A stretch of DNA of 64,000 nucleotides from a virus: the IMG/VR virus record IMGVR_UViG_3300033388_007730, positions 1-64,000 of that record; one strand, written 5' to 3'. The notes beneath the pieces are model-generated. The model was not told where the DNA came from. It searched no databases and saw nothing but the letters and a program-made list of their open reading frames with translations. The position numbers and the translations under genes were made by a program. Position 1 is the first letter of the stretch; each line of letters opens with the position of its first letter. This document shows positions 3,354-12,874 of the stretch, piece after piece.

Positions 3354-6300
3354 ATGGGGTCCACTAAGTACTATGCGTTGAGCTATTTTGATTTTGGAGA
3401 TCAATTAGATTCTCCTCTCAATATACAAAAAGAGATAGATCGTTTTGTTATTATAGATAAACAGTTATATGGTTTATATAGTGTTTTTGGAAGCGGTATT
3501 ATTAATGGATGGACTGTTAGGGACGCTGGATCAACTAATGGACAAGGCATAGGTATAACTATAAGCGCTGGAACTGGAATTATAAATCTTTTAGCTGCTG
3601 AAACCCATATCCCCGAATTTATATATGATTTAACACCAAATTCTATTTTGGATATTTATGCTTCGTTAACAGGTTCCTCATCTAGAGATAGAACAGTTGC
3701 TTTTGTCGTATCATCTTCTTATTTAGCAAACAATTCAATGATTAGGCTTGCTAGAATAGCTACTGGGAATAATAGTATTTTATATATAGATAATAATGTT
3801 AGAGATAGAATAAATTTTGATGATATAATAGAGGATCAAATAAATCAACATAAGCACAGAGGGACACCTTCTAAAATAGATTTACAAGAAGAAACAAGAA
3901 ATCAGTTGCCAGGGTCAAGGATAGAAGGAGTTGATGCTTCTAAAATAGTAAGTGGTCAATTTGATATAGATAGAATTCCTCTTATAGATCATAATGATTT
4001 AGAAAATAATGGGATGTTAAGTCATGCAGCATTAGATTCTTTTATTAGGACATTTTCCCAGAATAATAAAGAACTTTTAGGGGAAGTCGCTAGTGTTAAT
4101 TTGCTAAAAACTATAGCATTTCTAAAATATATGTATGCTACTGTTGATGAGCAATTTGTTAATGAGTTAGTAATTATTCCTGGAATTTCACTTAATAGTT
4201 TTATTGATTTTGAATCAAGCACTGCCAACATTAACTTGGGAGAAAATTGTATAAGTGGAACTCCTGCTCAGACTGGTATATTTACATCTGTTTTTTGGAA
4301 TAGCACATTTGCATTTGATAATGCAGTTGCAAAGGATAATGTTGTTATAGCTGATGATACAGTCAGCATAGCTAGGACAGGAGAACAGATTGATACTGTT
4401 GCTGATTTTAGTAATGGAACTTGTTTTTCTCCAGAAATGGTATTAGAAAGTAATACTCTGAGTTGTGATATAGAGACAGAGGAGGGAAATGAGTTAGGTA
4501 GGCTTAGCGGTGGAGGAACTTTGCAATATTATTATAGATTGAATTTAGCAAGTAATGATCATAAAGATTGGGCAGATGATTTTGATGAATTAGTAATTAA
4601 AGTTAAGACTAATCAGGCTACTCATGAACCAGTTTATATGTATGTTGTTAATGGATCTAATTTAACAGAAGATGGACAATCTTTTGGTAGCATAGAAGCA
4701 AATAATATTGAAGGAGTGCAAAAGCCAGCGACTCCTTGGAAAATTTTGGGACAAGATGAGAGTATGTCTGAATTCGAAGAAAAGGTTCTTGATATTACTA
4801 GTTTAGAATTAAATGATGTAAGTCAAATTACTATTTTTACTAATGATTCTTTTACTTTTGACATAGATGATATTCATGCTAGAAGAACTAATTTATTATC
4901 TGATAGTGGCACAATTCGTTTCAGATATGAAACAGAAGCGAATGTTGTTTTTCATTCAATTTTTTATAGTGTGGAAACACCAGAGGATTCTTCTGTATCA
5001 TTAAGAGTTAAAGGTGCTGCTTCTGTTGATTTGTTATCAAGATCTTCATATTCTTTACCGCTTAACTCAGGAGATATTTTTGCTATACCTGGAAGAGCAT
5101 CAGAAATAGAAGTCGTTTTAACTCCTAACAATGAAAAAAGTGTTTCTTCGGTTCTGAATAGTGTTGAACTAAGAATATTAACTGATGCAGATTTTAATGG
5201 GTTTGTTATAGATAATGGAAGTGATTGGGAAAGAGGAACATTAGAGAATATAACTATACAACCTGTTGCTGATCAAAATCTTGATGATTTGGTTATAACT
5301 GCTCCAATTAATGTTGGTGGAAGGCATTTTGTAAAAAATAGCGCTGTTAGCGAAATTAATGATGACAATATAGGTGTCTATGGATTTAGTGGTGTTGAGA
5401 TGCCATTATCTCCTAATCAAACTAGAGACTGGAATTCTTCTTTGTCAAGAGGATTTGATAATTCTTATTCGGCAGTAAGAAAATTTAATAATAATTTTTT
5501 AATTGCTGATACATATAACAATAGAGTATTAGAAGTTGATAGCACAGGTGAATTAGTAAGGGGATTTGGCTCTACTTATAGCATAGATACTAATTTTTAT
5601 CCATTATCAGCAATTTATAATTCTGTTACGAAGATTTTAACAATAGTTTTTACAAAAGTAGCTGTTATAAGTGATATAACTAAGATATCTTTCTTTATCG
5701 GCGCTGCTAAATTGCCATTAACTACTAATGATGTGCCTTTGACAACAGAAAAAGGTGGTGGTAAGGTTGTTGAGATACAGTTGGATGATGACACAGCTAT
5801 TAATCTAGTTGGTGTCACTAGTGATTTGTCTGTGAATTTTGAAACAGGTGCTTTTACTGAAAATATAACTGTAAATGAAGGAATGTCTGCGATTGGAAAT
5901 AGTATTTTTAGTCCATTGAGAGGGTTAATTTGTTTTGTCGGAGAATTCATATATACAGATAATATAAGACACCCAATTTTTGTTGATGAAACTGGAAGTA
6001 GTGGGAACTGGATAATATGTAATTCTTCAATTTTTTCCGTACCGATAGATGCTACTAAAGAAGAAAGCCCAAAAGTTCCTGATATAATAGAAATTAATCC
6101 AGATGATTTGACTGATACTGATAATAAGCTAACTTCTACTGATATACAATTTTCAGATTATTCTCTTGGTAGCATATGGGAATACGATGATGAACAATTT
6201 ATGGTTGCTGGACTTATTGATCATTCTTCTCCGTTGCCAGGGATAACTGGTGAGAAATTTATAGAAGATAATGGTGGGGCAGATGCAACTGCTAATATAT

Positions 6301-6602
6301 TGTTTAGAGCTAGTGCCATTGATGATTTAAAAGACAAAATGGGAGTTGTTTTTTTAATAGATAAACCAAATGGGAGAAATCAAGTTTTTTACATTTCAAA
6401 TGATGGAAATTTCCCAAGCGATATTTCCCAATTCTCTAATGGAGACTTTAGTGTTTCAGAGTCTAGTTTTGCTAGTAGTTCTGGAAGAATAATAAGATTG
6501 GATTCATATGGAAACGTTACTAGAGTTTTTGCGGAGGGAACGCTTTCTGTGGTAAATGATGCTAAGGTCTTGAATAATGATAATATAATAGTAAGTGTAT
6601 AA
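3354..6602 (+). CDS. Tail fibre/adhesin-type protein with N-terminal anchor domain and NHL-like repeats
   Basis: The 1,082-residue protein begins at ATG 3354 after a GGAAGG-type site. Residues 1-110 form a domain with the pattern F-x-F-GD, RF..ID.QL, G-x-GIINGW and ISAG-x-GII, shared with the gene at 28107, so it is probably the virion attachment domain. Residues ~165-235 carry HKHRG, an IEGVDASKIVSGQFD stretch and a DHNDL segment, a style seen in phage tail-fibre proteins. An NHL-like propeller repeat (NNFLIADTYNNRVLEVD) lies near residues 712-740, and the last 40 residues look like a final propeller blade. The end (KVLNNDNIIVSV) is repeated, with changes, at the end of the downstream HNH gene, so this gene's 3' end marks an insertion site. 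The precise role is inferred. Confidence 0.75.
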   Translation: MGSTKYYALSYFDFGDQLDSPLNIQKEIDRFVIIDKQLYGLYSVFGSGIINGWTVRDAGSTNGQGIGITISAGTGIINLLAAETHIPEFIYDLTPNSILDIYASLTGSSSRDRTVAFVVSSSYLANNSMIRLARIATGNNSILYIDNNVRDRINFDDIIEDQINQHKHRGTPSKIDLQEETRNQLPGSRIEGVDASKIVSGQFDIDRIPLIDHNDLENNGMLSHAALDSFIRTFSQNNKELLGEVASVNLLKTIAFLKYMYATVDEQFVNELVIIPGISLNSFIDFESSTANINLGENCISGTPAQTGIFTSVFWNSTFAFDNAVAKDNVVIADDTVSIARTGEQIDTVADFSNGTCFSPEMVLESNTLSCDIETEEGNELGRLSGGGTLQYYYRLNLASNDHKDWADDFDELVIKVKTNQATHEPVYMYVVNGSNLTEDGQSFGSIEANNIEGVQKPATPWKILGQDESMSEFEEKVLDITSLELNDVSQITIFTNDSFTFDIDDIHARRTNLLSDSGTIRFRYETEANVVFHSIFYSVETPEDSSVSLRVKGAASVDLLSRSSYSLPLNSGDIFAIPGRASEIEVVLTPNNEKSVSSVLNSVELRILTDADFNGFVIDNGSDWERGTLENITIQPVADQNLDDLVITAPINVGGRHFVKNSAVSEINDDNIGVYGFSGVEMPLSPNQTRDWNSSLSRGFDNSYSAVRKFNNNFLIADTYNNRVLEVDSTGELVRGFGSTYSIDTNFYPLSAIYNSVTKILTIVFTKVAVISDITKISFFIGAAKLPLTTNDVPLTTEKGGGKVVEIQLDDDTAINLVGVTSDLSVNFETGAFTENITVNEGMSAIGNSIFSPLRGLICFVGEFIYTDNIRHPIFVDETGSSGNWIICNSSIFSVPIDATKEESPKVPDIIEINPDDLTDTDNKLTSTDIQFSDYSLGSIWEYDDEQFMVAGLIDHSSPLPGITGEKFIEDNGGADATANILFRASAIDDLKDKMGVVFLIDKPNGRNQVFYISNDGNFPSDISQFSNGDFSVSESSFASSSGRIIRLDSYGNVTRVFAEGTLSVVNDAKVLNNDNIIVSV
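6564..6602 (+). repeat. Upstream copy of a 39-bp gene-end duplication flanking the HNH insertion
   Basis: The last 39 bases of the tail gene, including its stop codon, match 7660-7698 at 30 of 39 positions by my hand alignment. The encoded peptides are KVLNNDNIIVSV here and KVLNDDKVIVSV downstream. Confidence 0.75.
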
Positions 6603-6662
6603 TTTTTATATTTTTCTCAGAAAATAAAAGGTATTTTTAATTTATTTTATAATATAATAATA

Positions 6663-6735
6663 GATACTTGATCTCAACTATTAGAGTATCGAAAAATAAA
6701 ATATTTTAAGGATATTATTGAATTCTGAGTTGAGA
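6663..6735 (+). other. Possible H-type RNA pseudoknot upstream of the HNH gene
   Basis: Two perfect complementary pairs interlock. GATACT (6663-6668) pairs with AGTATC (6685-6690), and TCTCAACT (6672-6679) pairs with AGTTGAGA (6728-6735). The order is stem 1 left, stem 2 left, stem 1 right, stem 2 right, which is a pseudoknot. It lies in the 180-bp gap between the tail gene stop and the HNH start. The spacing is too tight for a group I intron P3/P7 core. Its function is unknown and chance cannot be excluded. Confidence 0.35.
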
Positions 6736-6783
6736 CGGAATTTGATTTTATCCTTTTTTTATTGGTATTGGGAGAATAGAAAA

Positions 6784-7698
6784 ATGAGAAAATTAACATA
6801 TAAACAAGTGAAAAGGATATTTGAGGATGGTGGATGCGAATTATTAGGAGAATATATAAATTGTGATATTAAAGTTAAATATAGATGTAGCTGTGGAAAT
6901 ATCTCAAAAATATTGTTACATAATTTTAGAACAGGACAAAGATGTAAAGAATGTAACAAAAATAAACATTCATATAAATATGTTAAAAAGTTTTTTGAAG
7001 ATAATGGGTTTGAATTATTAGAAAAAGAATATACAAATAATTATATTAAAATGAGATATAAATATTCTTGTGGTGACATAAGTAAGACAATATTTAATTC
7101 TTTTAAACGAGGGCATAGATGCCAAAAATGTGGGCACAAGAGACAATCAAATCTTAAAAAATTAACTTATGAAGAGGTGAAGAAAACTTTTGAAGATAAT
7201 GGATGTGAATTATTAGAAACAGAATATATAGATAGCAAAACAAAAATGAAATATAGATGTAGTTGTGGGAATATATCAAAAATAAGATTTGGAGATTTTA
7301 AAAGAGGATATAGATGTAGAAAATGTTCAATTGAAAAAGTTTTTGGTAAAAATCATTATAACTACAATCCTAACCTTACAGATGAAGAAAGAAAAATAAA
7401 AAGAAATTATCCTGAATACAAACAATGGATCAAAGATATTTACAAAAAAAATGATTATACTTGTCAATGTTGTTTTCAGCGAGGCGTTTATTTAAATGCT
7501 CATCACATTCAAAATTATTCTTCCTACAAGGATCTCCGTTTAGCAGTTTCAAATGGTATTACATTATGTGCCCCTTGTCACCAAAAATTTCATTCAATTT
7601 ACGGCAAAAATAGCAATACTTCTTTACAATTAGAAGAATTTCTATCAGACTTTTCAATGAAGGTGTTAAATGACGATAAAGTAATTGTAAGTGTTTAG
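6784..7698 (+). CDS. HNH homing endonuclease with three zinc-finger-like repeats
   Basis: I chose ATG 6784 (304 residues), which has GGGAGAAT upstream; a longer TTG start at 6718 would run through the putative RNA structure. Three tandem repeats of about 60 residues fill positions 1-180. Each has a pattern like YEEVKKTFEDNGCELLE followed by Y-x-C-x-CGNISKI, then FKRG-x-RC-x-KC, a probable DNA-recognition zinc module. A linker (GKNHYNYNPNLTDEER) leads to the nuclease at ~208-275, with CQCC, the catalytic AHHI motif (~239) and CAPCHQKFH (~262). Such enzymes cut DNA to spread their own gene. The last 12 residues (KVLNDDKVIVSV) do not belong to the nuclease but copy the end of the upstream tail gene. 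The gene is a free-standing insertion in the virion locus. Confidence 0.9.
   Translation: MRKLTYKQVKRIFEDGGCELLGEYINCDIKVKYRCSCGNISKILLHNFRTGQRCKECNKNKHSYKYVKKFFEDNGFELLEKEYTNNYIKMRYKYSCGDISKTIFNSFKRGHRCQKCGHKRQSNLKKLTYEEVKKTFEDNGCELLETEYIDSKTKMKYRCSCGNISKIRFGDFKRGYRCRKCSIEKVFGKNHYNYNPNLTDEERKIKRNYPEYKQWIKDIYKKNDYTCQCCFQRGVYLNAHHIQNYSSYKDLRLAVSNGITLCAPCHQKFHSIYGKNSNTSLQLEEFLSDFSMKVLNDDKVIVSV
7660..7698 (+). repeat. Downstream copy of the 39-bp gene-end duplication
   Basis: This partner of 6564-6602 is fused in frame to the HNH nuclease and supplies its stop codon. It probably represents the displaced original 3' end of the tail gene. Confidence 0.7.
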
Positions 7699-7718: not shown

Positions 7719-8819
7719 ATGGACGAAAAAATCAAATTAAATTATGCTTGTTTCTTAAATCAATCTGGATATAGCCAGGCAGCGAGAGATATTATAGTAT
7801 CTTTGCATAATAGTGGTAATTATGATTTAAAATTAACTGTTTTTGGTGGGAAACCGTCGAGAGCAGTTATAAGCGATGAAAAATATGAACTTTTTATGCC
7901 TATGACCAGAAAAGACACTGGTCCTGATCGTATTTTGATATATCATTGTATTCCTACGATGCAAAAACGAGAAAAAAAGGTAAAAAACAGTATTGGGTTT
8001 GCAACTTTTGAAACTTTTCAGCCACCGGATAAGTGGATCGAGATATTAAATAAAAATGATGCTATTGTGGTTCCTTCTAAATTTAATTATAAGATTTTTG
8101 CTCATGCTCCAATAAAAAAACCACTTTTTCATATACCTCATTCAATAAACACTAATTTACACAATATTGGGATAAAACCACTAAATATTTATAATAAATT
8201 CACATTTTTGTTTATGGGAACCTGGAAAAAAAGAAAAGGATATGATCAGCTTCTTGAAGCATTTTATTCAGAATTTAGTGATAAAGATAATGTACAATTG
8301 ATAATTAAAACTGATAAACCGAAACAGGCAGAGGTTTATGCCAGTAATAAGAAAAAACAAATAGGAATAAACAAAGGAATTGCCCCAATTCTATTTGAAA
8401 ATAAGGTATTCAATGAAATGATGTTGCCTAGATTTATAAAATCAGCTCATTGTTTGATATCCCCTCATCTTGGCGAGGGATTTGGATATCCTGGATTGCA
8501 AAGTATGGCACTTGGTGTGCCAGTTATTATAACTAATTTTTCGGGATGCCAAGATTATGCTAACGAAGATACTGCTACATTGTTAGAACCAAATGGATTT
8601 ATATTTCATAAAGATATGGATGGGATACCACAGTTTCGTAGTAAAAAGTGGGCATTTGTAGAAGTTAGTAGCATAAGAAAGTCCATGAGATATGTTTTAA
8701 ATAATCCACAAAAAATTAGAGAAAAAGCAAAAAATGCATATTTATATGTTATTGAAAAATTTAATTATAAAGTAATAGAAGATTTATTCACAAAAATGAT
8801 TAGAGAAATATATGGCTAA
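7719..8819 (+). CDS. GT4-type (GT-B fold) glycosyltransferase
   Basis: The 366-residue protein begins at ATG 7719, 20 bp after the HNH gene. It has the layout of a GT-B family 4 enzyme: an N-terminal acceptor half (SGYSQAARDI near residue 16), a central F-x-GTWKKRKGYDQLLEAF segment opening the nucleotide-sugar half (~165), and the typical C-terminal signature PHLGEGFGYPGLQSMALGVPVI (split across ~248-270) with the conserved E-x-FG and G-x-PVI elements. There is no signal peptide, so it acts in the host cytoplasm. It overlaps the next tail gene by 8 bp, so the two are translationally coupled. It may glycosylate virion proteins or modify the host surface; the substrate is unknown. Confidence 0.85.
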   Translation: MDEKIKLNYACFLNQSGYSQAARDIIVSLHNSGNYDLKLTVFGGKPSRAVISDEKYELFMPMTRKDTGPDRILIYHCIPTMQKREKKVKNSIGFATFETFQPPDKWIEILNKNDAIVVPSKFNYKIFAHAPIKKPLFHIPHSINTNLHNIGIKPLNIYNKFTFLFMGTWKKRKGYDQLLEAFYSEFSDKDNVQLIIKTDKPKQAEVYASNKKKQIGINKGIAPILFENKVFNEMMLPRFIKSAHCLISPHLGEGFGYPGLQSMALGVPVIITNFSGCQDYANEDTATLLEPNGFIFHKDMDGIPQFRSKKWAFVEVSSIRKSMRYVLNNPQKIREKAKNAYLYVIEKFNYKVIEDLFTKMIREIYG

Positions 8820-9090
8820 GTTGGTATTAAAACCTCAATTCGGAACAACAACTGATTCAAAAAAGATTAAGTATGAGATAGAAGGTCTAGAGTCATTATC
8901 TGATGGAGAGCAATATAGAATAGATTTTGAAAATACTACATTTGCTTGCAAAATAGATAAAGATGATGAATATCTTAACTTAAATATTCCACCTCACTCA
9001 TCACAATCAGCGATATCTGTTTTTGCCAATGTTTTTGTAGTTGATGATCATGGAACATATTTAAAAGAAATATGTCCAGCAATATTTTGA
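8812..9090 (+). CDS. N-terminal part of a tail protein, probably joined to the next frame by +1 frameshift
   Basis: The 92-residue reading frame starts at ATG 8812 inside the end of the glycosyltransferase gene and stops at TGA 9088. It encodes a beta-rich piece without a known domain. The next frame (+1) is open from before 9068 and continues without a stop through 9230 to 12874. Reading TTT then GAA instead of TGA would join them into a 1,353-residue protein. The sequence after the junction (EVSKKFEGDIQINPVF) looks coding and is not otherwise explained by the downstream ATG. Either this is recoding, a mutation, or a one-base sequence error in a run of four T. Confidence 0.7.
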   Translation: MAKLVLKPQFGTTTDSKKIKYEIEGLESLSDGEQYRIDFENTTFACKIDKDDEYLNLNIPPHSSQSAISVFANVFVVDDHGTYLKEICPAIF

Positions 9091-9091
9091 A
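9085..9091 (+). other. Candidate +1 frameshift site (UUU UGA A)
   Basis: The codons are ATA TTT TGA. A phenylalanyl-tRNA on TTT can slip one base onto the overlapping TTT, placing GAA in the A site. This is the same logic as the prfB site (CUU UGA C). I see no strong prfB-like Shine-Dalgarno stimulator just upstream. The downstream frame is open for 47 codons before its first ATG. Confidence 0.5.
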
Positions 9092-9229
9092 GTATCAAAA
9101 AAGTTTGAAGGTGATATTCAAATTAATCCTGTTTTTGCTAGCCCTAAAGATCTGTGCAACATCAAAATATCATCTTGTGAACCAAACAGTAAAACGATTT
9201 TCTCTGTTAATGATAGAAGATTTTCTATT

Positions 9230-12200
9230 ATGTCAAATGATGATGGCAATGGATCAATACACTTTTTAGGAAAGGATGTATTAGATAAAGATGCTACATC
9301 GGTTCAAAAAATTCCTATTAATTTTTATTCTAAAGATGATAATTATATTAAGAAGAACTTTACAGGTTCTTATATTAATTTACTTCCACAAGAGATTGCT
9401 TCTTTCGCAGATGCTCCAGTGGATCCTAGATGTTTAGATCCTAATTATGTTCCTGGTGGTTGGAATTATGATGATGATGCACCAACAGAATGTTTCCCAG
9501 ATGTTAATGTTCCAGATATCGCTGGAACTCCTATTGGCATAACTGTTCCATCAGTTGGGCTTCCAACAACACAACATTGTAGCGGAGAAGATTATATGTC
9601 TGTTCAAAATGGATGTAAAGTTAATAATCATTCTATGGCTATTCTTAATAATGGCAGAATTGTTCATGCTTATACTTATGTGGATAGATTGATAACAGAT
9701 ACTGATTCTACGTTTTATAATATAAACAAAGTAACTGTTCTTGACAACAACTCATCTGTTACAGTCCCTATAATCGCCAATAGAGATGTAGCTATTGCTC
9801 CAAAAACTCGTTATGGAGATTTTGACATATATGTTGAAAAAGATTTATATGATGCTTTAGAAGAAGTTGGAGATAATCCATCGGCTGCTGATATCTCTGT
9901 TTTATTCTATGATCAATCTATTGGATATCAATCAGCTAAAGTGATAGGAAGGAAAATAGAATATGCTATTCCTTCTGACAATCCATCATTACCTGGTGGA
10001 GAAGGAGAATATTATGTAATCATTGCCGAAGATGAGTATATTAGAGCGAAGATAGATGGTTGGATGTTTTGTGTTAATGTATCTTTTTATAAAAGATTAG
10101 AAAATTCAAAGACTATCATCGGTGCTAATAGTGGTATTAACCTAGCATTGGGATATGTAAAAGATGGTAATGGTAATGTTCTTCAAACTAATAATGTATC
10201 AATAGCTTCTAATAAATATTATTTAAGTACATATGATGAATCTTTCATTTATCTTATTGCGGAATCGTTTAAAGATGGTGAGTCTCATTTGTTTTTTGCT
10301 TCAGCTGCTGTTGGGACAGAATATGAAGATAGCACAGAAGACGATTTGTATTATGGGTGGAAACAAATAACGTTTACTGGTAATAATATAAATCCTGTAG
10401 CTTATATTGACGATACTAATACTCTTCATGTATTTTGGGAAAGTGATAGATCTGGAACTTGGAAAATATACTATGGTTGTCTTGGACTTTCAAATGAATC
10501 TATGACTAATTCCGTATTTGCTTCTATGATAGATAAGCAAGCGGAGTTATTTGACAATGATGATAAATCATCAAATTATTTATCTCAGAATTTATTAGAA
10601 AATAGAACTACTGATGAACCTTCTGCTGAGCAAATACCAACATCTTTTACTACAGACATTTTAACAGTGACTGAATGGCAAGATAGCGATAATAATAATG
10701 GGACAATAACTCATACAGCATCTCAAACTGATTTGCAGAATGTTCAAATTGTTGCTAATGCTGTAGAAGATGAAGCTATATCTTTTGTTAAAGTACCTAT
10801 CTATGAAGGTGATAGAGTGGAAGGAAGTGGTAGTCCTCTTCCGTATTCTCAAATTAATTATCAAACTTCATTTGGGTTAACAACTTCTTTAACTCAGCCT
10901 AGCTTATTAATGTCCGATTGGGATGGCAATTTTTTAGATAAAAAAGATATTGATATTCTTTTTAATAATTGGAAAAATGAATTTACAGAATATATCGATA
11001 TAGATATGTCTAATATTTCAGCATACTCAAAAGTTGGCAACATATTCTCAATAGGTAGACAGGATGAGATATTTGATAAGGTGGTTCCATTTTATGGAGC
11101 GTATGATACAGAGCCAAACCCTTCAGTGATTGTCAATTTTACAGCGAAGATATTGAAAGAAGATAACACATTAAAAGATTTTATGTTTGGATTTATGCTT
11201 GAGAAATCTCGCTTTAAAGCTACTAATGTTAGATCCAAAGAAGAGCATGAGAGTATTAGTGATGATGAATATATATCAGAAGAAGAACATATAATTTTTA
11301 CTGGTAGAGCAAAATTAATTGCATTTGTAAGGACTGAAGATGATAATGATGAGAGAGCTAATTATTGCATATTAAGAGAGTTCTCGAAAGTATTTGATTT
11401 GATGGGAACTAATTCTTATGATATAATAACTAATTACACAAAAATAGATTCTGATGAAGTCAAAAATGTTCATGATTCGTTTAATGACTCTTATCCGAAT
11501 AGGTTTGCAGGAAGAGTAACATTGCTTATTGATGGAGCTGCTAAGTTCTCACAATCATTTGTATCTAATTTATCTTATGATGATACTTACTTCTCTATTG
11601 GATTGGGAATCCCTTTTGGTGGATATCTAGTTGCAGATAAAATGACACCTAGCACTAGTGGGTTATTTGATAATGTTAGTGTAGATATGTCTTATAGGGA
11701 TATACAAATAACATCACCTGTTTATTCTTATAATGAAGATGTTGTTTATTTAGCTGCGTCTATCACAGATATGACAGAGTTTAGAGTGCAATCTGTGGAA
11801 TATAATCCTTCTGAAGGATTCCCTTATACATTATTAAATTTGGGGATAAAAGAAGTTGAAACAATAGTGTCATCACAACAAATACTTAGATGTAGTGATC
11901 TTGGCATTTGTCCAGAAGGGAATGGAGAATGGAATGAAGATTATGATGTTAGTGATATTGAAAAATTAACATTTACACTAGATTCTGGTACAGGAGCAGC
12001 AAAAGATGGGCTTGTTGTTACAAATACTGATACTAACATAGAAATTTATAGATTGCCATTAACGAGAACTACTTCTCTTCCTGGTGGGATATTTACAACA
12101 GATGTTAGTTTATTGGGGCATAATAATATTAATATAGCATTGTTGAGAGAGGATCCCAATACAGCATTTGTTGATTTGAATTTGTACTTCATATCAATTG

Positions 12201-12874
12201 ATTATGAAAATTTATTTTCTCAAATACCTATTTCTATGGAAGGCATTTGTAAATCTCCTAGCATAGCATATGGAACTTGTAATGATGCTCATTTAGTTTG
12301 GCAATCTAATTTGAACAATTACTGGGACGTTTATTACTCTAATGCTGCTGATAAATTAAAACCATTTAGATTTGATACTAGAATAACTAATACAAAAAGC
12401 AATAGTATAATGCCATCAGTATCAGTAAATAAAAATGGGAAAAGAATGATAGTTTGGCATGATGATAGAAATAAAAACTTTGATATTTATTCTGCTAGAT
12501 CTTTTAACGGCTATACTTGTGATGAAGATCATTGTCAGAATAAGATGGTAGATGCTTATGAGAGTGAGATAACTCAATGCTCTTTATCGTTTAGTTACAC
12601 TACTCTAGAGACTGGTTATTATAATTTTTCTATCAATTTTTATAGTGATAGTGGTTTAGTGAATTTGTTTAAGACTATATCATCTGGAGACGATCCTACT
12701 GGGTGGTTTGTAGATAGCGTAGATTTAAACGCAATATCAACTTATTCTTCTGATGGTAATCTTGGTACTCAATTAACTATCGGTGATGTTGTTGTTATTT
12801 CTTATACGCCAGATAAAGAAGATGGTATTTTTGATAAAATGTTATATACTCAATTAGTTGGTACAGTTGTTTAA
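9230..12874 (+). CDS. Large tail/adhesin protein with W-x-DR propeller-like repeats and a C-terminal YSD module
   Basis: From ATG 9230 the frame encodes 1,214 residues. This ATG lacks a convincing ribosome binding site and the frame is open upstream to 9089, so the true product probably begins at 8812 through a frameshift. Strands of the form HVFWESDR-x5-IYYG (~398), HLVWQSN-x6-VYYSN (~1020) and MIVWHDDR-x5-IYSAR (~1072) resemble sialidase-like beta-propeller blades. Residues ~1127-1204 contain a module with FYSD, GWF and a YTPD end, shared with the genes at 12925 and 22277. No signal peptide or membrane segment is visible. It is probably an extended host-binding or baseplate-associated structural protein. 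Confidence 0.75.
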   Translation: MSNDDGNGSIHFLGKDVLDKDATSVQKIPINFYSKDDNYIKKNFTGSYINLLPQEIASFADAPVDPRCLDPNYVPGGWNYDDDAPTECFPDVNVPDIAGTPIGITVPSVGLPTTQHCSGEDYMSVQNGCKVNNHSMAILNNGRIVHAYTYVDRLITDTDSTFYNINKVTVLDNNSSVTVPIIANRDVAIAPKTRYGDFDIYVEKDLYDALEEVGDNPSAADISVLFYDQSIGYQSAKVIGRKIEYAIPSDNPSLPGGEGEYYVIIAEDEYIRAKIDGWMFCVNVSFYKRLENSKTIIGANSGINLALGYVKDGNGNVLQTNNVSIASNKYYLSTYDESFIYLIAESFKDGESHLFFASAAVGTEYEDSTEDDLYYGWKQITFTGNNINPVAYIDDTNTLHVFWESDRSGTWKIYYGCLGLSNESMTNSVFASMIDKQAELFDNDDKSSNYLSQNLLENRTTDEPSAEQIPTSFTTDILTVTEWQDSDNNNGTITHTASQTDLQNVQIVANAVEDEAISFVKVPIYEGDRVEGSGSPLPYSQINYQTSFGLTTSLTQPSLLMSDWDGNFLDKKDIDILFNNWKNEFTEYIDIDMSNISAYSKVGNIFSIGRQDEIFDKVVPFYGAYDTEPNPSVIVNFTAKILKEDNTLKDFMFGFMLEKSRFKATNVRSKEEHESISDDEYISEEEHIIFTGRAKLIAFVRTEDDNDERANYCILREFSKVFDLMGTNSYDIITNYTKIDSDEVKNVHDSFNDSYPNRFAGRVTLLIDGAAKFSQSFVSNLSYDDTYFSIGLGIPFGGYLVADKMTPSTSGLFDNVSVDMSYRDIQITSPVYSYNEDVVYLAASITDMTEFRVQSVEYNPSEGFPYTLLNLGIKEVETIVSSQQILRCSDLGICPEGNGEWNEDYDVSDIEKLTFTLDSGTGAAKDGLVVTNTDTNIEIYRLPLTRTTSLPGGIFTTDVSLLGHNNINIALLREDPNTAFVDLNLYFISIDYENLFSQIPISMEGICKSPSIAYGTCNDAHLVWQSNLNNYWDVYYSNAADKLKPFRFDTRITNTKSNSIMPSVSVNKNGKRMIVWHDDRNKNFDIYSARSFNGYTCDEDHCQNKMVDAYESEITQCSLSFSYTTLETGYYNFSINFYSDSGLVNLFKTISSGDDPTGWFVDSVDLNAISTYSSDGNLGTQLTIGDVVVISYTPDKEDGIFDKMLYTQLVGTVV

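Follow-up and report, generated by a model that had tools for sequence, protein, structure and literature searches.

An HNH nuclease gene inserted in the 3' end of a phage tail gene appears to carry a substitute gene end

A gene for a free-standing HNH nuclease interrupts a tail gene near its 3' terminus in the 64,000-nucleotide stretch of viral DNA analyzed here (the window). We consider it likely that this gene belongs to a homing-type nuclease cassette made up of a substitute gene end with its stop codon, a leader, and the HNH open reading frame (ORF), with the original end of the tail gene displaced behind it. The substitute end would complete the tail protein, and the original end, pushed about 1.1 kb downstream, would now close the nuclease ORF. 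The features of the region, with the evidence used to assign each, are as follows.

3354..6602, plus strand: tail gene, 1082 aa, with a C-terminal NHL-type propeller (ORF, homologs, and fold)
6555..6607, plus strand: putative foreign patch enclosing copy 1 (52 of 53 nt identical to contig L002)
6564..6602, plus strand: copy 1, the apparent replacement 3' end KVLNNDNIIVSV-stop used by the tail gene (end comparison)
6603..6783, plus strand: non-coding leader of the nuclease gene (folding test and Rfam search)
6784..7659, plus strand: HNH nuclease ORF, three treble-clef zinc-finger-like repeats followed by an HNH domain (Pfam and PHROG)
7660..7698, plus strand: copy 2, apparently the tail gene's own 3' end in displaced form, making up the final 12 codons of the nuclease ORF (identity to the native ends of contigs L009 and L008)
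7719..8819, plus strand: glycosyltransferase gene (at empty sites, the next gene after the tail gene)

The tail ORF (3354-6602) terminates in KVLNNDNIIVSV-stop and the HNH ORF, which ends at 7698, terminates in KVLNDDKVIVSV-stop. The original prediction had put the match between these ends at 30 of 39 bases, and this is what we find with the stops included (77%), equivalent to 28 of 36 coding nucleotides and 9 of 12 amino acids. These values are far above those of the 779 other gene-end pairs in the window, which, when anchored at their stop codons, share a mean of 11.1 and a maximum of 22 of 36 nucleotides and no more than 5 of 12 residues. The best plus-strand match of copy 2 within the window is copy 1. 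Aligned without anchoring, the DNA of the two ends is weakly significant (z 3.3) in this AT-rich sequence, and unanchored repeat scoring was rejected as a test for being too noisy in such DNA; the weight is thus borne by the stop-anchored comparison and by the relatives. The recurrence of the tail gene end at the C-terminus of the HNH protein is real.

The nuclease ORF starts at ATG 6784, with a longer alternative start at TTG 6718, and encodes three CxC...CxxC repeats (6840-6954, 7017-7131, and 7212-7326) ahead of HNH residues located at roughly 7462-7593. Its product matches Pfam HNH at 2e-5, above the cutoff, and phrog_559 at 1e-27; its PHROG matches, 559 and 681, are endonucleases. The HNH residues are conserved and the intact nuclease domain is accompanied by a DNA-binding part, as in a free-standing HNH homing endonuclease. 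In HNH relatives the domain stops at a position equivalent to (Q)LEEFL; the final 12 residues of the window protein are therefore foreign to the HNH family, in keeping with the earlier proposal that this peptide has nothing to do with a nuclease. The ORF has no stop codon of its own and abuts copy 2, which closes it and is followed by the native spacer and the glycosyltransferase gene. The 181-nt leader folds more stably than shuffled sequences (z -2.8) and partly pairs the ribosome-binding site. The record that carries this nuclease is a 219-kb virus record, not organelle DNA. The nuclease gene is the single gene of the insert, which holds no integrase and no near-identical att repeats. The original prediction had likened the region to gene-end restoration by integrating elements; the element is better described as a free-standing homing-type nuclease cassette than as one of integrase type.

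Searches of the tail protein against Pfam, PHROGs, and a phage collection gave no match. An AlphaFold model of residues 683-1082 (pLDDT 85) has NHL-type propellers as its best PDB matches, and in this model the propeller-like fold closes with two short strands built from the copied stretch; the earlier suggestion was that the peptide fits the last propeller strand. Because the stretch builds the last two strands in a confident model, loss of this end would probably harm the tail protein. The insertion point falls between the codons for Ala-1070 and Lys-1071.

Full-length homologs of the tail gene were found in 11 other viral or metagenome-assembled genome (MAG) contigs, namely L002-L010 (viral), L017 (found through its glycosyltransferase), and the MAG contig L023. 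Eight of these (L004, L005, L007, L008, L009, L010, L017, and L023) have an empty site, with one gene end followed directly by the glycosyltransferase gene, as expected if an element of about 1.1 kb had entered near the 3' end of the tail gene. The site is occupied in the window, in L002 by a remnant, and in L003, so the nuclease gene is present or absent at one site among related phages. In L002 both gene ends flank a 37-codon C-terminal HNH remnant, LRTDVNNGITLC...QLEKFF, fused to AKVLDDDSIIVSV-stop. L003 carries an HNH nuclease 54% identical to that of the window after a single tail gene end, with no recognizable copy 2, indicating that the duplication is not obligatory. An HNH gene bearing this terminal peptide with no homologous tail gene beside it, the arrangement that would have spoken against the original prediction, was not seen among the relatives.

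Several other features of these contigs were recorded. In L003 (9330-9490), the nuclease gene is preceded by a 52-aa ORF (MRKEKYTEEIRIVVPPSLY...) that has its ribosome-binding site within a strong 13-bp hairpin; the ORF product has no Pfam match and may regulate the nuclease. In L006 (9530-10260), this tail/glycosyltransferase junction holds a different HNH nuclease, and the sequence before the HNH gene repeats the glycosyltransferase start (MTPIEYI / MIPIEWI); this repeat is not significant in unanchored scoring and is suggestive only as a parallel case. The L023 tail and glycosyltransferase genes lie in a Patescibacteria MAG contig, which could be a hint to the host or a binning error. The 548-kb contig of the empty-site relative L008 has a nuclease of the same family elsewhere (locus L125), between genes on the opposite strand. 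In the window, the gene after the glycosyltransferase is frameshifted at 9072-9230 (ORFs 8812-9090 and 9230-12874), through a sequencing error or in reality, and is a single unbroken ORF in L002, L008, and L009.

Comparison of the two copies with these relatives indicates which of them is foreign. The window's copy 2 shares 83% identity with the native end of L009 and 81% with that of L008, and is 72% identical to copy 2 of L002, a value like that of native ends among themselves. Copy 1 is somewhat less native-like than copy 2 (78% to L008 and 67% to L009). Between the window and L002, the 53 bases from 6555 to 6607 differ at a single position, and the last 16 codons of the tail gene are 98% identical in nucleotides and 100% in third positions, against 66% overall and 52% in third positions for the tail genes as a whole. 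No other stretch of the same length reaches the value of the end, and the other nine pairs among five relatives show no such spike. Judged by this near-identity and by the native-like copy 2, copy 1 was acquired by lateral exchange, and the native end is the one now displaced as copy 2, which accords with the earlier reading that a replacement end was brought in and the old one pushed downstream. The HNH C-terminal 37 codons of the window and L002 are only 59% identical in DNA (32% in third positions). For this reason, a single recent event that brought in both copy 1 and the nuclease was rejected as an explanation; copy 1, at 98%, has a history of exchange apart from the nuclease genes now present and can be moved or converted independently of them. 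A separate short-patch conversion of copy 1, for example by short-patch repair, is therefore needed, and this is the main qualification to a one-step history.

The same layout is found at other HNH loci. Two scans yielded 160 loci, many on the same contigs, and about 120 distinct loci (122) were tested; in viral contigs, a single HNH protein query returned one locus and alignment queries returned many. The stop-anchored test compared the ends of upstream genes with the sequence at or just behind the HNH domain, and 14,762 cross-locus pairs served as its control (99.9% level 23, maximum 38). The window and five other loci (L174, L109, L194, L024, and L196) scored above the 99.9% level, where 0.12 would be expected among 122 loci. 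The paired gene ends are DREVVAVSFDYS and DREVVGVSLDYS in L174 (the second fused to the nuclease), FWHRILKLS and FWHKVLRLK in L109, RILNIQWRCDLDN and RVISMQAKSDINN in L024 (the second behind the nuclease stop), and ISHAKHT in both positions in L196 (the second fused to the nuclease). L194 was set aside as weak by eye despite its score. Two additional cases reach lower significance, L162, where the second end is fused to the nuclease, and L195, where a methyltransferase end lies beyond the nuclease stop. A gene end, an HNH gene, and a diverged second end thus occur in this order at about six unrelated HNH loci, and the signature is present in about one in twelve HNH loci of the sample. The target genes bear no relation to the tail gene, and the DNA-binding parts vary among the HNH proteins. 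Ahead of the HNH ORF, the spacer measures 2 nt in L174, 10 nt in L162, 11 nt in L196, and 12 nt in L109.

A mirror image, with a displaced gene start before the nuclease and the complete gene behind it, is found at three loci. L043 (2802-3930) has a duplicated start, 40 aa, of a gp25-like baseplate gene; in L067 (2590-3510) a second copy of the downstream gene's start precedes the nuclease; and in L181 (1967-2990) an old gene start is fused to the N-terminus of the nuclease. The direction of displacement at the parallel and mirror-image loci is inferred from their layout rather than from relatives with empty sites. Other candidates were discarded. The seeming start duplication in L161 (1801-2217 and 2907-3857) consists of two whole paralogous tail-tube-like genes flanking an HNH gene, the L054 match and the first L109 match look like paralogous domains or shared nuclease motifs, and L053 looks like an intron-type HNH gene. 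In L056 a terminator-like hairpin occurs with small changes on both sides of the HNH gene (766-789 and 1529-1552). In L025, from Sporosarcina phage Lietuvens, a short ORF (MSLLDKVKSR, 2913-2945), which may resemble the start of a portal protein, precedes the HNH gene, and the portal gene lies behind the nuclease.

Sequence comparison provides the insertion, the empty sites, the foreign patch, and the native-like displaced end, as well as a case in which the nuclease was lost but the two ends persist (L002) and the reappearance of the layout at genes of no relation. From this anatomy we infer how the cassette might spread. Most probably, during mixed infection the nuclease would cut or nick the native gene end of cassette-free phages, and repair of the cut would copy the cassette in. 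The substitute end, if diverged enough to escape cutting, would no longer present the cut site, so that the invaded gene would be both functional and protected. Cleavage at the native end, the position of that site, resistance of the substitute end, and transfer by coinfection are all steps of this proposed model.

A rather unlikely alternative is that the duplicated end is a scar and has no function in a cassette. An ordinary intergenic HNH gene, located after an intact tail gene in a donor, would have homed into a phage of diverged sequence. On the left, recombination inside the tail gene would have brought the donor end along; on the right, short or illegitimate homology would have made the junction upstream of the end native to the recipient, so that this end stayed in place. 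Such a course is consistent with L003, where the nuclease follows a single tail gene end with no clear copy 2, with the short microhomology AAGGT at the junctions, and with the differing histories of the HNH gene and copy 1. It sits poorly with the recurrence of the layout at unrelated genes with different HNH relatives, often as in-frame fusions, and with fungal elements that carry a gene end in the same way (PMC3630166).

The remaining explanations fare much worse. That the tail gene duplicated its own end locally and the HNH gene then inserted between the copies would account for a nuclease gene flanked by two similar ends. This is very improbable and already contradicted by the pattern of identity across phages, in which copy 1 is 97% identical to copy 1 of another phage but 78% to its own copy 2, with the rest of the gene at 66%, and by the empty relatives with one copy. 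HNH genes often reside in phage introns, and splicing of a group I or II intron with copy 2 as its downstream exon would likewise restore the tail protein. We regard this as less probable still, as a permissive Rfam intron search (E up to 5) found no match to a ribozyme core, the leader spans just 181 nt, there is no non-coding 3' part, and copy 1 already contains a stop; at L174, L196, L109, and L162 the 2-12 nt spacers leave no room for a ribozyme. The least probable reading, again already contradicted, holds that the peptide serves the nuclease as a functional DNA-binding tail, or that the match is due to chance. The HNH ORF does end in frame with the peptide, but the peptide is absent from HNH relatives, the stop-anchored test lies far above its controls, and in every independent case it is the neighboring gene that the tail resembles.

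The closest known parallel to the proposed cassette is provided by the mobile ORFs (mORFs) of fungal mitochondria, which form gene hybrids and are described in PMC3630166 for Glomus atp6, atp9, cox2, and nad3 and first reported in Allomyces macrogynus atp6. There, an endonuclease ORF lies in the 3' part of a gene, a foreign C-terminus is used, and the native one is displaced behind the ORF; the gene-end copies are diverged in DNA and the native copy groups with relatives (PMC3630166). The window has the same order of foreign gene end, endonuclease ORF, and displaced native end. The phage cassette would work like these elements, but with HNH nucleases and zinc fingers in tailed phages in place of the LAGLIDADG or GIY-YIG enzymes of mitochondria; unlike what is described for mORFs, the nuclease ORF here continues in frame into the displaced end, and phage mirror-image cases occur at gene starts (PMC3630166). 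The seg and mob free-standing nuclease genes of T4 are described in intergenic regions and share with the window gene an intron-less position between phage genes, presence or absence among relatives, and a structured leader near the nuclease ribosome-binding site; a term search of that review gave no instance of a carried replacement gene end (PMC2988022). Zinc-finger (CapR-like) phage nucleases and HEG islands, located at exchange boundaries beside structural genes, likewise join repeated zinc fingers to a nuclease domain, and a term search of that paper gave no instance of gene-end replacement (PMC10448857). A limited literature search, confined to papers available without subscription, brought to light no phage example of a carried gene end.

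As a rule, homing nuclease genes occupy introns, inteins, or intergenic gaps and so leave the invaded gene unbroken. A carried substitute end, if this reading is true, lifts that limit and may allow a nuclease to target conserved coding sequence. We lean somewhat toward the existence of a general class of phage HNH cassettes that invade either end of a gene with a diverged substitute, leaving the target intact and immune to cutting; the gene-end swap looks like a general, so far undescribed trick of phage homing nucleases. It offers an easily searchable signature, a preceding gene's end that recurs at the C-terminus of a nuclease ORF or in the 60 bases that follow. If true, foreign gene ends would remain behind as scars, providing a route for small-scale exchange in conserved phage genes.
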